Source: an uncultured Pelagibacteraceae bacterium
GTDB lineage: Bacteria > Pseudomonadota > Alphaproteobacteria > Pelagibacterales > Pelagibacteraceae
Direction of reading: 5' to 3'
NCBI GenBank assembly: GCA_902612345.1
Contig: CACMDE010000005.1
Span: forward strand, 1-64,000
DNA: 64,000 nt
Within the stretch, counting starts at the first letter, position 1. Every line of letters starts with the position of its first letter. Of this stretch, positions 40,045 to 46,180 are shown piece after piece. The notes below the pieces were generated by a model. That model saw nothing but the letters and a program-made list of their open reading frames with translations, ran no database searches and had not been told where the DNA came from. The position numbers and the translations under genes are program-made.

Positions 40045-40050
40045 TATAAT
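40045..40050 (+). promoter_or_regulatory. -10 box for the gatCAB operon
   Basis: A perfect TATAAT at 40045-40050 lies 28 bases before the gatC ATG (40079). The only -35-like sequence is TTGTGA (40020-40025) with a long 19-base spacer. On the opposite strand the overlapping TATATT could serve ruvX, so the two promoters may interfere. An upstream in-frame ATG at 40049 falls inside this box, which argues against it as a start. Confidence 0.45.
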
Positions 40051-40078
40051 GATAATTTGCCTTAAAATTAATTATCAT

Positions 40079-40366
40079 ATGAGTATAGATCTTAAAACAG
40101 TAAAACACATATCTAAATTATCAAGAATTTCAATTGATGATCAAAAAGCTAACAAATTGGAGAAAGATCTTAATGCTATATTTAAATGGATAGAACAACT
40201 TAACGAATTAAACACAGATAATGTTGAACCATTGACCTCAATTGCTGAAACAACTTTAAGATTTAGAAAAGATCAAATAGAGACTAAAAATATCAGAGAA
40301 GATGTTTTAAAAAATTCACCTAAAGATAATAAAGATTATTTTGTAGTACCAAAGGTTGTAGAATAA
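40079..40366 (+). CDS. gatC: Asp/Glu-tRNA amidotransferase subunit C
   Basis: 95 residues from ATG 40079 ([19 protein letters not shown]). The small subunit wraps around and stabilises GatA-GatB. The conserved [20 protein letters not shown] and VEPLTS region are present. One-base overlap with gatA. Confidence 0.95.
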
Positions 40367-41823
40367 TGACAAATTTAATAGATTTAACTCTTAATGATCT
40401 TGTAAATAAAGTTAAGTCTAAAGAAATTTCATCAAAAGAAATAACAACTGCTTATATAGATAGATCAAAACAATCAAAAAAACTGAATACATATGTAGAA
40501 GAGACTTTTGACAGCGCAATTAAAAGTTCAGAAAAATTTGATACTAATCCTGATTTTAAAAAAAAACTTCCAGGAATACCGTTAGCAGTAAAAGATCTAT
40601 TTTGTACAAAAAATGTAAAAACCACAGCCAGTAGTAAGATTTTAGAAAATTTCATACCAAGTTATGAATCTACAGTAACTGAAAATCTTTGGAATGAAGG
40701 AGCAATTTTAATTGGTAAATTAAATTGTGATGAGTTTGCTATGGGTTCTTCGAATGAAACAAGTCATTTTGGAAATGTTATTAGTCCAATTGATGATAAT
40801 CTTGTTCCCGGAGGTTCTTCTGGTGGATCAGCTTCTGCTTTAGCTGCAAAACTTACACCAGCAACAATTGGTACTGATACAGGTGGATCAATAAGACAAC
40901 CGGCATCTTTTACAGGTACAGTTGGTTTAAAACCTACTTATGGAAGTTGCTCAAGATATGGAATAGTCGCTTTTGCATCCTCTTTGGATCAAGCAGGACC
41001 AATGACTAAAGATGTAAAAGATTGTGCATTGTTGTTGGAGGTTATGAGTTCTTTCGATCCAAAAGACTCAACTTCAATTAATTTTAAACGTCCAAATTAT
41101 TCATCAAATTTAAATAAATATATCAAAGGAAAAAAAATTGGAATACCCAAAGAGTATAGAGTTGATGGAATGCCTTTCGAAATTGAAAAACTTTGGGAAA
41201 AAGGTAAAAATTATTTAAAAGATTGTGGTGCAGAAATTATAGATATTTCTTTACCTCATACAAATTATGCTTTGCCAACCTATTATATCGTTGCTCCAGC
41301 AGAAGCATCATCTAATTTAGCAAGATATGACGGAGTTAAATATGGATTTAGAGCTGAGGGTGAAAATTTGATTGATATGTATGAAAAAACAAGATCACAA
41401 GGTTTTGGTGATGAAGTAAAAAGAAGAATTATGATTGGCACATATGTATTATCTTCGGGATATTATGATGCTTATTATCTAAAAGCTCAAAAGGTAAGAA
41501 AACTTATTAAAAATGATTTTGATAATGCTTTTAATAAGGTTGATGCAATATTAACTCCATCAACACCAAGTTCAGCATTTAAAGTAGGAGACAAAAAAGA
41601 TGATCCAGTTTCAATGTATTTAAATGATATTTTTACAGTTCCTGTAAATTTAGCTGGTTTACCAGGAATTTCTATACCAGCAGGCTTAGATAAAAACAAT
41701 TATCCTCTAGGACTACAAATAATTGGAAAACCATTTGATGAACAAGGAATATTAAATATTGCATATTCAATGGAAGAAAAAATAAATTTTAAATTAAAAA
41801 CTAACGATTGGTGGATTAAGTGA
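40366..41823 (+). CDS. gatA: Asp/Glu-tRNA amidotransferase subunit A
   Basis: 485 residues, amidase-signature family. The catalytic Ser-cisSer-Lys triad is visible as AVKDLF (lysine), [10 protein letters not shown] and [11 protein letters not shown] (serines). It releases ammonia from glutamine for GatB. Presence of gatCAB means Gln-tRNA (and perhaps Asn-tRNA) is made by amidation of mischarged tRNA, as in most alphaproteobacteria. Overlaps gatB by four bases. Confidence 0.98.
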
Positions 41824-43283
41824 GTAAAGATCAATACTTAATTGAGAAAAATGGTAACAAATATGAAGTTATTATTGGTTTAGAAGTTCATGCTCAAGTA
41901 CTTTCAGAGTCAAAATTATTTTCTTCATCCGCAACAAAATTTGGATCTGAACCAAATACTCAAGTAAGTTTAGTTGATGCAGCGTTTCCTGGAATGTTGC
42001 CAGTCATCAATGAATTTTGTGTAAGACAGGCAGTTAAGACTGGAATTGGTCTAAATGCAAAAATTAATAAGAAATCTATATTTGATCGAAAAAATTATTT
42101 TTATGCAGATCTTCCACAAGGTTATCAAATCTCACAATACAAGGATCCGATTGTTGGAGAGGGAACTGTAGTTTTAGATTTACCATCTGGATCTAAAACA
42201 ATTGGAATTGAAAGACTTCACCTTGAACAAGATGCAGGAAAAAGTATTCATGACATAGATCCGAGCAGCACATTAGTAGATTTAAACAGATCTGGAGTGG
42301 CTTTAATGGAAATAGTCAGCAAACCTGATCTTAGATCCCCTGAAGAAGTGAACTTGTATATTAAAAAATTAAGATCAATAATGAGATATTTAGGCACTTG
42401 TGATGGAAATATGCAAGAAGGTTCGCTTAGAGCTGATGTAAATGTATCAGTAAGAAAATTAGGTACTGATAAGTTAGGTACACGTTGTGAAATTAAAAAT
42501 GTAAATTCTATTAAATTTATGCAAATGGCTATTGAATATGAAGCAAATCGACAAGTTGAACTTATAGAAGAAGGTAATGCAGTTGACCAAGAAACAAGGT
42601 TATTTGACACAAAAAAAAATCAAACTAGATCTATGAGATCAAAAGAAGATGCTCATGATTATAGATATTTTCCTGATCCTGATCTTTTACCTTTAGAATT
42701 TGATGATCAATTTATCGAAAATATAAAAAAAGAAATACCCGAACTTCCTGATCAAAAAAAGAACAGATTTATTGAAAAATTTAAATTAAGTCCTTATGAG
42801 GCAACAATCCTAGTTTCAGATCTTGATACATCAAGATTTTTTGAAAAAGTAATTGAAAAATCAGATATAAAATTATCAGCAAATTGGATAACCGGTGAAT
42901 TATTTGCGCTCTTAAACAAAAATAATCTTGAAATTAGCGAAAGTCCAATAAGCCCTGAAAATTTGTCTAAATTAATTAATTTAATTTCAGAGGGAATAAT
43001 TTCAGGAAAAATTGCAAAAACAATATTTGAAATAATGTCTAAAGAAAACAAAGACCCAAATATTATTGTGGAGGAAAAAGGTCTAAAACAAGAAAGCGAT
43101 CCTAAGGCGTTAGAAAATTTAATTCAAAAAGTATTAAGATCTAATGAAGATAAAGTAAATGAGTATAAGAGTGGTAAAGATAAATTGTTTGGTTTTTTTG
43201 TTGGCCAGGTAATGAAAGAAAGCAAAGGGAAAGGCAATCCAAAAATGATCAATAAGATTTTAAAAGAAAAACTTAATGGATAA
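41820..43283 (+). CDS. gatB: Asp/Glu-tRNA amidotransferase subunit B
   Basis: 487 residues, starting with GTG that overlaps the gatA TGA. GatB binds the mischarged tRNA and, with ATP, activates Glu or Asp for amidation. IGLEVHAQV, the signature [19 protein letters not shown] and a C-terminal YqeY-like helical domain (about 340-487) are seen. Its end overlaps the methyltransferase gene by eight bases. Confidence 0.98.
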
Positions 43284-43926
43284 AAACATTAATATCGATC
43301 ATAAATTGATCGAATATATATTCACTCACACAAGCAATTTACATCCTATTCAGAAAGAATTAATTAAATACAACGAAAGTTTAGGTCACATTAAAAGACT
43401 TCAAATATCTATATTACAAGCGAACTTTTTACAATTTCTAATTAAATCGAGAAAGATTAATAATTGTTTAGAAGTTGGAACTTTTACAGGTTACAGCACT
43501 TTATCAATGGCACTATCTCTAAATAAAAATGGAAAAATACTTTCTATAGATAAAGATAAAGAAAAAAATATGATTGCTAAAAGTTTTTTTAAAAAAGCAA
43601 AAGTTTCAAATAAAATTAAAACAGAGGTATCAAATGGTAACGACGTTTTAATCAAATTAATTAAAAATAAAAGAAAATATGATTTAATTTTGATTGATGC
43701 GGATAAAGAAAATTATATTAGTTATTTTGACAAATCTTTAAAATTATTAAATAAAAATGGACTATTAGTTGTAGATAATATTCTTTGGAAAGGTGAGGTA
43801 ATAAATGTAAATTCCAAAGATAAATTAACTCAAAAAATTAAAAAATTTAATCTATACGTAAAAAAATCTAAAATTAATAAATATATTCTTCCTATTGGTG
43901 ATGGTTTTTTTATTTGCTGGAAATAA
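43276..43926 (+). CDS. trmR: O-methyltransferase, TrmR-like (predicted tRNA 5-hydroxyuridine methyltransferase)
   Basis: 216 residues, COG4122 class I O-methyltransferase. SAM-binding [16 protein letters not shown] (about 56-71), metal/substrate-binding [15 protein letters not shown] and [12 protein letters not shown] are visible. In Bacillus subtilis, TrmR (YrrM, same family and almost the same length) methylates 5-hydroxyuridine at tRNA position 34. Here the gene overlaps gatB by eight bases and touches trhO, which makes that substrate, so a TrmR role is a good inference; a catechol-type methyltransferase is the alternative. Confidence 0.7.
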
Positions 43927-44823
43927 ATGATTACAATTTTATCTTTTTATAAATTAAAAAAAATTAAAAAATTAACAAGTCTCAAAAATATATTATTCAG
44001 AAAAATTAACTATTTATCTATTAAAGGTTTAATTATATTATCACCCGAAGGAATTAATGGGACTCTTGCAGGTAGTACAAATAATATTAATATTATAAAA
44101 AAAATAATAGTTAAATATTTGAATATTTCTAAATTTGATATTCAAAACATAACGAAATCTAAATTTATACCTTTTTTAAAGGCAAAAATTAAAATTAAGA
44201 AAGAGGTAGTACCTATAAATGAAAAATACAATTTCAATAAAAATTTAAAAAAAAAATATCTTACACCATTACAATGGAATAAGTTTCTTGAACTTAAGAA
44301 TTCAAAAATAATCGACGTTAGAAAACCTTTTGAACATGAAGTAGGAACTTTTAAAAAGGCAATTAATCCCGACACAAATAATTTTAGAGATTTTAAAAAT
44401 TACCTTTCTACAGTCAGTAAAGATGTAAAATTAGGCATGTTTTGTACAGGTGGAATAAGATGTGAAAAGGCATCAAATTATCTTCATAAAAATGGATTTA
44501 AAAATATTTATATGTTGAAGGGTGGAATAATTAATTATTTTAACAAAATTAAACCTAAAAAGAGCAAATGGAAAGGAGAGTGCTTCGTTTTTGATAATAG
44601 AGTGACTATAAAAAAAAATGCTAAACCTGGCTGTTATGGGATATGTAATGGATGCAGAATGCCTATTTCAGCTAAAGAAATGAAATCTTCTAAATATAAA
44701 GTAGGTCTTTCCTGTCCTAAATGTTACGACAAATTATCAGATGACCAAATAAAAAGATTTACTATGCGCCATAACCAAATTGTAAATTCTAAAATAAAAT
44801 TTAAATTTAGACAAAAAAGATAG
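43927..44823 (+). CDS. trhO: tRNA uridine(34) hydroxylase (rhodanese family)
   Basis: 298 residues. TrhO uses oxygen to hydroxylate U34 to 5-hydroxyuridine. An N-terminal ferredoxin-like domain (LSPEGINGTLAG) leads to a rhodanese domain with DVRKPFEHEVGTF and the active cysteine in FCTGGIRCEKAS, then a cysteine-rich tail (CYGICNGCRMP, CPKCYDK). Shorter than E. coli YceA (350). Starts at the base after trmR and ends one base before the MATE gene. Confidence 0.92.
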   Translation: MITILSFYKLKKIKKLTSLKNILFRKINYLSIKGLIILSPEGINGTLAGSTNNINIIKKIIVKYLNISKFDIQNITKSKFIPFLKAKIKIKKEVVPINEKYNFNKNLKKKYLTPLQWNKFLELKNSKIIDVRKPFEHEVGTFKKAINPDTNNFRDFKNYLSTVSKDVKLGMFCTGGIRCEKASNYLHKNGFKNIYMLKGGIINYFNKIKPKKSKWKGECFVFDNRVTIKKNAKPGCYGICNGCRMPISAKEMKSSKYKVGLSCPKCYDKLSDDQIKRFTMRHNQIVNSKIKFKFRQKR

Positions 44824-44824
44824 A

Positions 44825-46180
44825 ATGAACATACTTGCAGATGATGTAAAAAAATTAATTAGAAAACTTGCAATTCCTGCGGTAGTAGGAACTTTGTTTC
44901 AAACTCTTTATAATGTTGTCGATACCTTTTTTGCAGGAAAAATTTCACCTGAAGCCCTTTCTGCCTTAAGCAAATCCTTTCCTGTCTATTTCATAATTAT
45001 TGCAACATCGATTGGTGTAACAGTTGCAGGAACTTCATTAATAGGTAACAGTATTGGAGAAAAAAATGAAAAGAATTCATTATTTTATTTTTCACATATT
45101 GTATATTTTGCATTAATAATTTCGATAGTTATTACTTTTCTTGGTCTCAATTATTCTGAAAAAATATTTATTTTAATGGGATCAACTCAATATGTAACAA
45201 ACTTAGGTTTACAATATACTGATATTATTTTTTATGGCTCGATACTATTTATATTAGTTGTTGCAATTAATTCTTTACTTCATGCTGAAGGAGATACAAA
45301 AACCTATAGAAATGTGTTAATTTTATCTTTTTTGATAAACATAATTTTAAATCCAATATTAATCTTTGGTTTTATGTTTGTGCCAGCTTTTGGTATTAAA
45401 GGAATTGGCATATCAACTCTAGTTGCACAGTTTGTATCGTTTGCCATAATTTTAGTTAAAGTTTTAAAAAACAAACGTATAAAAAAAATTACAAAAGAAT
45501 ATTTATTGCCAAAGTTATACTATTTTAAAAATATATTCTTTCAGTCTATGCCTATTATTGTATCCATATGTGGATATTCTATCGCCGCAGCAATTATTTT
45601 TACGTATGTTGGTAACTCTGGAGAATTTGCTACAGCTGGTTATGGTGCTGGAACAAGAATTGAACAGGTTGTTTTACTTCCAATATTAGGAATAAATACT
45701 GCAATCATAACTATTATAGCTCAAAATTTTGGTGCAAAAAATCTAGATAGAGTTAAAGAAACATATATTGGCGCTATACAATATTCCCTAATGATAATGA
45801 TTGTTTGTTCATTATTAATTTTTATTTTCTCTAATCACATAACAAGTTTGTTTTCTAACAATCAAACTGTAATAGAATATGGTGGAAAATACCTTCAAAT
45901 TTCAGCCTTCGTTTTAACTGCATATCCAATCTTCTTTTTATCTAATGGATGTTTTATGGCATTAAAAAAGTCAGAATTTGCAATGATATCTAATTTTTTC
46001 AGAAATGTTTTAAACCCTGTCTTAGTTTTTTACTTTGCATCTTTGTATAATGCGTCATTTGAACAGTTTTTTTGGATCTGGGTCGTAATTAATTGGATAT
46101 TTTCTATTACTTATTTTTTGTTCACTTTTAATTATTTGAGATCAAGGTTACAAGAAACTCGAGCTATCATTAATCCATAG
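44825..46180 (+). CDS. MATE family efflux transporter
   Basis: 451 residues with about twelve membrane helices in two similar halves. LAIPAVVGTLFQTLYNVVDTFFAG and the second-half GYGAGTRIEQVVLLPILGINTA are typical of the MATE (NorM/DinF-like) family, which exports cationic compounds using Na+ or H+. Substrate unknown. Last gene of the gatCAB transcript; its 3' end overlaps the convergent soxG by 33 bases. Confidence 0.93.
   Translation: MNILADDVKKLIRKLAIPAVVGTLFQTLYNVVDTFFAGKISPEALSALSKSFPVYFIIIATSIGVTVAGTSLIGNSIGEKNEKNSLFYFSHIVYFALIISIVITFLGLNYSEKIFILMGSTQYVTNLGLQYTDIIFYGSILFILVVAINSLLHAEGDTKTYRNVLILSFLINIILNPILIFGFMFVPAFGIKGIGISTLVAQFVSFAIILVKVLKNKRIKKITKEYLLPKLYYFKNIFFQSMPIIVSICGYSIAAAIIFTYVGNSGEFATAGYGAGTRIEQVVLLPILGINTAIITIIAQNFGAKNLDRVKETYIGAIQYSLMIMIVCSLLIFIFSNHITSLFSNNQTVIEYGGKYLQISAFVLTAYPIFFLSNGCFMALKKSEFAMISNFFRNVLNPVLVFYFASLYNASFEQFFWIWVVINWIFSITYFLFTFNYLRSRLQETRAIINP

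Follow-up and report, generated by a model that had tools for sequence, protein, structure and literature searches.

In the closest described systems, uridine 34 (U34) of tRNA is hydroxylated to 5-hydroxyuridine (ho5U34), which a further enzyme then uses. According to the available sections of PMC6599085, Escherichia coli has TrhP in addition to TrhO (YceA) and hands ho5U34 to CmoA and CmoB, and the methyltransferase TrmR of Bacillus is encoded with a U34 hydroxylase, trhP1/trhP2. The same sections (Sakai et al. 2019, PMC6599085) describe yceA(trhO)-trmR fusion genes in Phytophthora and Phaeodactylum, and record trmR as present and trhP as absent in Ehrlichia canis. According to PMC10531406, Mycobacterium tuberculosis has a TrmR homologue without a known hydroxylase. 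Because these fusions and the trmR of E. canis are in print, the idea of such a pairing is not new. Our literature searches found no report linking TrhO with SAR11, nor any report of the gene pair discussed here or of the branch of its methyltransferase, and a search on 5-hydroxyuridine, O-methyltransferase and TrhO found only Sakai et al. 2019. Here, we analyze a stretch of 64,000 nucleotides (the window; positions 1 to 64,000 of contig CACMDE010000005.1, assembly GCA_902612345.1) from an uncultured bacterium of the Pelagibacteraceae, a SAR11 family, whose genome assembly comprises 1.07 Mb in 34 contigs and is 83% complete. In the window, a gene for an O-methyltransferase of family COG4122 is directly followed by trhO. 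We show that this pairing is conserved in the window's family, that the methyltransferase appears to lie outside the TrmR clade, and that the pair probably makes 5-methoxyuridine (mo5U34). The two genes are:

43276 to 43926, + strand: class I O-methyltransferase (COG4122/PF01596) of 216 amino acids with an ATG start, assigned to a SafC-type branch and carrying the residues of a metal-dependent enzyme (PF01596 match, trees and AlphaFold model); proposed ho5U34 O-methyltransferase.
43927 to 44823, + strand: trhO, predicted O2-dependent tRNA U34 hydroxylase of 298 amino acids with an ATG start (NF001133 match and active-site alignment).

The original prediction that a 216-residue COG4122 protein and TrhO are encoded with no base between them proved correct: the TAA stop codon of the methyltransferase gene (43924-43926) abuts the ATG of trhO. 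This arrangement is not due to chance, because the two genes are adjacent in every genome of the window's family that has both. Our sample of the order contained 118 genomes including that of the window, 100 of them from the window's family (f1) and 18 from another family (f2), and at E values up to 0.001 the methyltransferase had matches in 112 and TrhO in 109. Within f1, the methyltransferase was found in 95 genomes and both genes in 94. In all 94, which represent six genera, the genes are adjacent on one strand with the methyltransferase first, and 2-14 bases, stop codon included, separate the match ends (in G034, where the methyltransferase is divided between two contigs, we counted the part adjoining trhO). 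Conservation of the pair in other SAR11 genomes, proposed earlier as a check, thus holds in this family. In genome G087 the methyltransferase is cut at a contig end and there is no trhO, and five genus-mates within f1 (G063, G084, G102, G110 and G114) lack both genes. Joint loss in these five was considered as evidence and rejected: at 1e-50 they have no match to gatB either, whereas the other five genomes tested do, and the absence is therefore probably explained by a missing contig or stretch of the assembly. The pairing is also seen in named records. Among the best 80 of 581 records with a related methyltransferase, inspected with flanks of up to 3 kb on each side (less at contig ends), 27 are of Pelagibacteraceae type; trhO adjoins in 26 of these, and the 27th ends at a contig edge. 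In 52 of the 53 non-SAR11 records among these 80, trhO was not found within the same flanks. The lone exception is the cyanobacterium Leptolyngbya sp. BC1307 (L183 2992-4559), in which a SafC-type methyltransferase and TrhO are encoded convergently, 11 bases apart.

The window TrhO is likely an active U34 hydroxylase, because its CTGGIRC motif is identical to that of E. coli TrhO and the counterparts of K112 and R114 are kept. The protein matches NCBIfam NF001133 (oxygen-dependent tRNA uridine(34) hydroxylase TrhO) with 238.3 bits (cut-off 170) and shares 28% identity with E. coli TrhO. Residues C173-C179 of the window protein are identical to C200-C206 of the E. coli protein (C173-R178 aligning with C200-R205), and K89 and K91 align with K112 and R114, the latter being replaced by lysine; both K112 and R114 are required for activity in E. 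coli, according to the sections seen of PMC6599085. Both the CXGGXR active site and the basic residues of the beta-strand that E. coli TrhO requires are present in the window protein. A comparison of protein P0002 with viral contigs gave 32 pattern matches and no relatives.

The methyltransferase matches Pfam PF01596 (Methyltransf_3) with 176.7 bits (cut-off 22) and is the sole protein of the window genome above this cut-off. It should be an active O-methyltransferase, because D141, K144, D167 and N168 are invariant across the SAR11, TrmR-type and O-methyltransferase rows that we compared; we take D141, D167 and N168 to be the metal ligands (Asp-Asp-Asn) and K144 the catalytic lysine of the COG4122/PF01596 family. 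The enzyme is S-adenosylmethionine-dependent and probably also metal-dependent. Its best sequence matches in the PDB are 3r3h (1e-36), 3tr6, 3cbg, 2hnk and SafC (5lhm), and lower matches include 8k1f, named a tRNA 5-hydroxyuridine methyltransferase (2e-20), and B. subtilis TrmR (3e-14). A fold search with the AlphaFold model (predicted local distance difference test score, pLDDT, 94.3) gave SafC as the closest structure (Z 32.8, root-mean-square deviation 1.5, 215 residues aligned), followed by 3tr6 (32.7) and 3cbg (32.3), while B. subtilis TrmR was farther than SafC (Z 28.0, root-mean-square deviation 2.2, 204 aligned, 24% identity). The branch of SafC and the caffeoyl-CoA O-methyltransferases (CCoAOMT) is nearest to the window enzyme in sequence, tree and fold; likeness of the modelled fold to SafC or TrmR is, however, no proof of function. 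Net charge was tried as a sign of RNA binding and discarded: it is +20 for P0001, -6 to +16 for four other SAR11 rows and -7 for B. subtilis TrmR, and is driven by base composition.

Two phylogenetic trees bear on the relationship with TrmR. The first contained 66 rows, was built without L112 and L119, and its bootstrap had not settled; the second contained 49 rows: it gained L112, L119 and five rows from plasmid records and dispensed with, among others, L207, the three f2 rows and the Bacteroidota rows. In the 49-row tree, a branch supported at 99/98 parts eight TrmR-type rows from the SAR11 rows together with the SafC-type O-methyltransferase references, and the 66-row tree has the same split, with the SAR11 side supported at 97/95. 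YrrM is the only one of the eight TrmR-type rows known as assayed, and two of them are near-copies; 4oa5 and a plasmid protein of Bacillus badius also fall on the TrmR side of the 49-row tree. A tree forcing SAR11 and TrmR together was 25.7 log-likelihood units worse and was rejected (approximately unbiased test, p-AU 0.001), the group tested having been chosen after the tree had been inspected. The SAR11 rows form one group only weakly (77/17 in the first tree and 85/53 in the second), with a Bdellovibrionota row nested inside them in the first. For both trees, the program flags an unusual letter composition in some rows, that of the window included, which can mislead trees; neither contains a plant row, and the likeness to plant CCoAOMT is drawn from the sequence and fold searches. 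Two motifs that we derived from the eight TrmR-type rows, VPI (within the first 60 residues) and DAAK, occur in all eight of them and in none of 14 SAR11 rows, and the window enzyme carries O-methyltransferase-type, non-TrmR residues at Q43, F70, L76, D92, D143, N146, Y150 and T185. Judged by these trees and motifs, the window methyltransferase is not a TrmR orthologue and belongs to another, SafC-type branch of COG4122. The earlier description of the gene as trmR-like therefore holds for its COG4122/PF01596 membership and fails for TrmR orthology, given the 99/98 split, the p-AU value and the missing VPI and DAAK. The proposed Bacillus-type route is not supported either, since the enzyme falls with SafC-type O-methyltransferases outside the TrmR clade; a grouping with catechol or caffeoyl-CoA enzymes and not with TrmR had been named beforehand as refuting that route, and the COG4122 trees gave a grouping of this kind.

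Two side observations come from the same set of proteins. In the 49-row tree, 8k1f is nearly identical to a protein of Fusobacterium vincentii (L251 2974-3618; end branches of about 0.01), and because of this near-identity the solved enzyme is probably fusobacterial. The methyltransferase of a record labelled Pelagibacteraceae bacterium SI047_bin126 (L166) lies outside the SAR11 group, with those of other marine alphaproteobacteria, and TrhO was not found in its flanks, so that this record is either a mislabelled bin or an exception.

Other known routes to and from ho5U34 were searched for in the 118 genomes of the order. No match to PF01136 (peptidase U32, the family of TrhP and TrhP1/2) was found in any of them, while 8 of 14 controls, including E. 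coli and B. subtilis, were positive. CmoB (TIGR00452) did not exceed its 275-bit cut-off in any of the 118 (best match 62.4 bits), nor in any of the 289 genomes of a sample of the class Alphaproteobacteria, E. coli being the one control detected in the class search; the many weak general methyltransferase matches to this profile are all below the cut-off. Likewise, none of the 118 exceeded the cut-off for CmoA (TIGR00740), and the window genome had no match at 1e-15; seven genomes (G030, G043, G053, G054, G063, G075 and G115) have CmoA-like matches of 129.5-161.2 bits, under the cut-off, and no CmoB over cut-off. Going by these profile searches, a single known hydroxylase gene is present in SAR11, and the carboxymethyl route is absent. 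The original prediction was conditional on the absence of cmoA and cmoB and called for a search for trhP; all three are absent by these thresholds across the order, the window genome being 83% complete. Streamlining, by contrast, does not account for the missing cmoB: because none of the 289 class genomes has it over cut-off, its lack is not peculiar to SAR11. The available sections of a review (PMC8879553) state that some Rickettsiales use CmoA and CmoB.

The tRNA set of a relative is informative. Genome G015 is a single contig, 99% complete, and its methyltransferase is 67% identical to that of the window. We found 32 tRNA genes in it, a count that depends on the tRNA search and may miss a tRNA. 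Its Ala box is served by UGC alone and its Pro box by UGG alone, and the other boxes have Val GAC and UAC, Leu (CUN) GAG and UAG, Ser (UCN) GGA and UGA, and Thr GGU and UGU. Each of these six NYN boxes (N, any base; Y, pyrimidine) thus has one U34 tRNA and no C34 tRNA. The six U34 tRNAs match the E. coli tRNAs that are modified via ho5U34, as listed in the sections seen of PMC6599085.

From these data we infer both activities, their order and their product as follows. TrhO would hydroxylate C5 of U34 with O2 to give ho5U34, as the curated family match and the identical active-site motif suggest. The adjoining O-methyltransferase would then methylate the new hydroxyl to give mo5U34, a step suggested by the conserved pairing, the catechol-type active-site residues and the fact that no other known ho5U-using enzyme was found. 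The product would be a 5-alkoxyuridine, the one made in Bacillus, at the wobble position of tRNAs reading NYN family boxes, with tRNA-Ala(UGC), -Pro(UGG), -Thr(UGU), -Ser(UGA), -Val(UAC) and -Leu(UAG) as the likely targets. We favour this explanation because the pairing is conserved and the tRNA set of the relative has one U34 tRNA for each of the six NYN boxes, and it is further supported by the pairing being kept while the gene after trhO changes. Also in its favour are the residues D141, K144, D167 and N168 shared with TrmR, the published trhO-trmR fusions, the E. canis genome with trmR and no trhP, and the in vitro methylation of free ho5U by Rv0187 (PMC6543040). In our view, it is the best reading and a fairly probable one that the pair makes mo5U34 from ho5U34 through a non-orthologous enzyme that acts like TrmR from outside the TrmR clade. 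For a wider scenario the balance is about level: that the Pelagibacteraceae recruited a SafC-type O-methyltransferase, independently of TrmR, for a two-gene, O2-dependent mo5U34 pathway; that the whole Ala box and the whole Pro box are each read by a single U34 tRNA; and that f2 goes no further than ho5U34, except if its own PF01596 protein, which is unlinked, acts.

The genes around the pair are:

40049 to 40366, + strand: gatC, first gene of the run (PF02686 GatC, 70.6 bits, cut-off 23).
40366 to 41823, + strand: gatA (PF01425 Amidase, 481.6 bits, cut-off 27).
41820 to 43283, + strand: gatB (PF02934 GatB_N, 396.7 bits; PF02637, 178.3 bits).
44825 to 46180, + strand: MATE (multidrug and toxic compound extrusion) transporter, the next gene downstream of trhO, in a place that is not constant (TIGR00797, 231.1 bits, cut-off 147.4).

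The Pfam matches confirm that the pair sits behind gatCAB, as had been noted before, and the 3' end of gatB overlaps the start of the methyltransferase gene by 8 bases. In the 11 other f1 loci that we read, which cover the six genera, gatA precedes gatB, and the order gatA-gatB-methyltransferase-trhO is kept in all 11. The gene after trhO varies among these relatives, being a MATE gene in four and a redoxin-like gene in seven. The term tRNA-centred operon is apt for gatCAB and trhO.

The family f2 is organized differently. TrhO is present in 15 of its 18 genomes, without an orthologue of the window methyltransferase, and at the four f2 trhO loci read, neither gatB nor a methyltransferase of the window type lies alongside. 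The PF01596 protein of f2 is a far row in the 66-row tree, and its gene lies apart from trhO, between a second methyltransferase-sized open reading frame (ORF) and a 480-residue ORF at the five loci read. At L122-L126 it is part of a repeated four-ORF run; its neighbours in L125 scan as a pyridine-nucleotide-disulphide oxidoreductase, a second methyltransferase and an oxidoreductase like flavin-containing monooxygenases.

Several observations weigh against the proposed mo5U34 pathway. The window enzyme groups with presumed small-molecule O-methyltransferases, lacks both TrmR motifs, and has no arginine at YrrM position 178, which is kept in seven of the eight TrmR-type rows. Furthermore, the two genes do not keep company elsewhere in the class. 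Thresholds for strong matches in the class were set from the match listings (E up to 2.4e-14 for the methyltransferase, 108 genomes; E up to 4.4e-26 for TrhO, 110 genomes). Among the 285 class genomes outside f1, 26 have both, 78 the methyltransferase only, 80 TrhO only and 101 neither. Strong matches thus avoid each other, sharing only 26 genomes (odds ratio 0.42, p 0.0014; the genomes are not independent, and size and kinship are uncontrolled), and adjacency is seen in none of these 26, the genes being on different contigs in 21 and at least 420 kb apart in five. Because of this avoidance and the 0 of 26, the association is lineage-specific. Gene order is conserved in SAR11, and for this reason the adjacency may partly be frozen synteny. 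Among the 15 tRNAs found in the window genome, all with anticodons also present in G015, none is a U34 tRNA of the six NYN boxes; the missing ones are probably on stretches absent from the assembly. In the 61 window ORFs, C-ending codons make up 0.157 (Ala) and 0.102 (Pro) of the pyrimidine-ending codons, values not clearly lower than in other boxes (Thr 0.161, Ser 0.126, Val 0.119, Gly 0.164, Leu 0.106). Finally, the sections seen of PMC6543040 report that Rv0187, an enzyme of the catechol O-methyltransferase (COMT) type, methylates free ho5U in vitro and has no significant activity on ho5U-containing tRNA.

One rival explanation is that ho5U34 made by TrhO alone is the end product, and that the methyltransferase is a small-molecule, catechol-type enzyme that only shares the transcript. 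The nearest structures and tree neighbours (SafC, 3tr6 and 3cbg, with plant CCoAOMT-type enzymes by sequence and fold) are in line with this, as are the f2 genomes with TrhO and no orthologue of the f1 methyltransferase. In addition, it seems common for TrhO to occur with no known enzyme to follow it up, because 80 of the 285 class genomes have a strong TrhO match without a strong methyltransferase match and CmoB is over the cut-off in none of the 289. However, the genes are paired in 94 of 94 cases over six genera, and a free-living cell with a streamlined genome is unlikely to retain an unrelated catechol methyltransferase at exactly this place; we regard this explanation as possible but rather unlikely. 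In a second rival explanation, the substrate would be a different position in RNA, or a protein of translation. Its gene lies directly behind gatCAB with the overlap into gatB, and the sections seen of PMC6543040 mention an Anaplasma O-methyltransferase reported to act on a protein of the outer membrane; yet no sequence feature suggests such a substrate and the constant 3' partner is TrhO, which makes this improbable. Least credible of all is that the enzyme is, as originally viewed, of the TrmR type, a true orthologue that would have diverged by AT-rich drift. This reading has in its favour the common Pfam family and fold, the four shared active-site residues, the pairing with a U34 hydroxylase and the flagged composition of the window row, but it is opposed by the splits in both trees, the rejection of the forced union and the eight O-methyltransferase-type residues.

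If the mo5U34 pathway is real, its implications go beyond the window. CmoB is over the cut-off in none of the 289 Alphaproteobacteria while 110 have strong TrhO matches, and the SAR11 pair would be a clear candidate answer to the question of what becomes of ho5U34. It would mean that the making of mo5U34 evolved in two separate branches of a single methyltransferase family, that marine look-alikes of caffeoyl-CoA and catechol methyltransferases may be tRNA-modifying enzymes, and that, in some of the ocean's most abundant cells, one U34 tRNA is enough for the entire Ala box and one for the entire Pro box.

Compared with known systems, the SAR11 pair combines features of several. Its methyltransferase is nearest in sequence, tree and fold to SafC (5lhm/5log), the Synechocystis O-methyltransferase (3cbg) and the Coxiella O-methyltransferase (3tr6); these enzymes, like plant CCoAOMT, are known or presumed to act on catechol-type substrates, unlike the substrate proposed for SAR11. 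Its hydroxylase shares the CTGGIRC motif with E. coli TrhO, but E. coli has a second hydroxylation route and the CmoA/CmoB route, neither of which was found in SAR11. The fusions of Phytophthora and Phaeodactylum join the same two activities genetically, although they are fused and eukaryotic. A parallel in proposed function is B. subtilis TrmR (YrrM, 5zw3/5zw4), which has the COG4122/PF01596 fold and the same active-site residues and carries out the reaction proposed here, ho5U34 to mo5U34. The SAR11 enzyme differs from it in belonging to another branch of the family, in lacking VPI and DAAK, and in having TrhO rather than TrhP as its partner.

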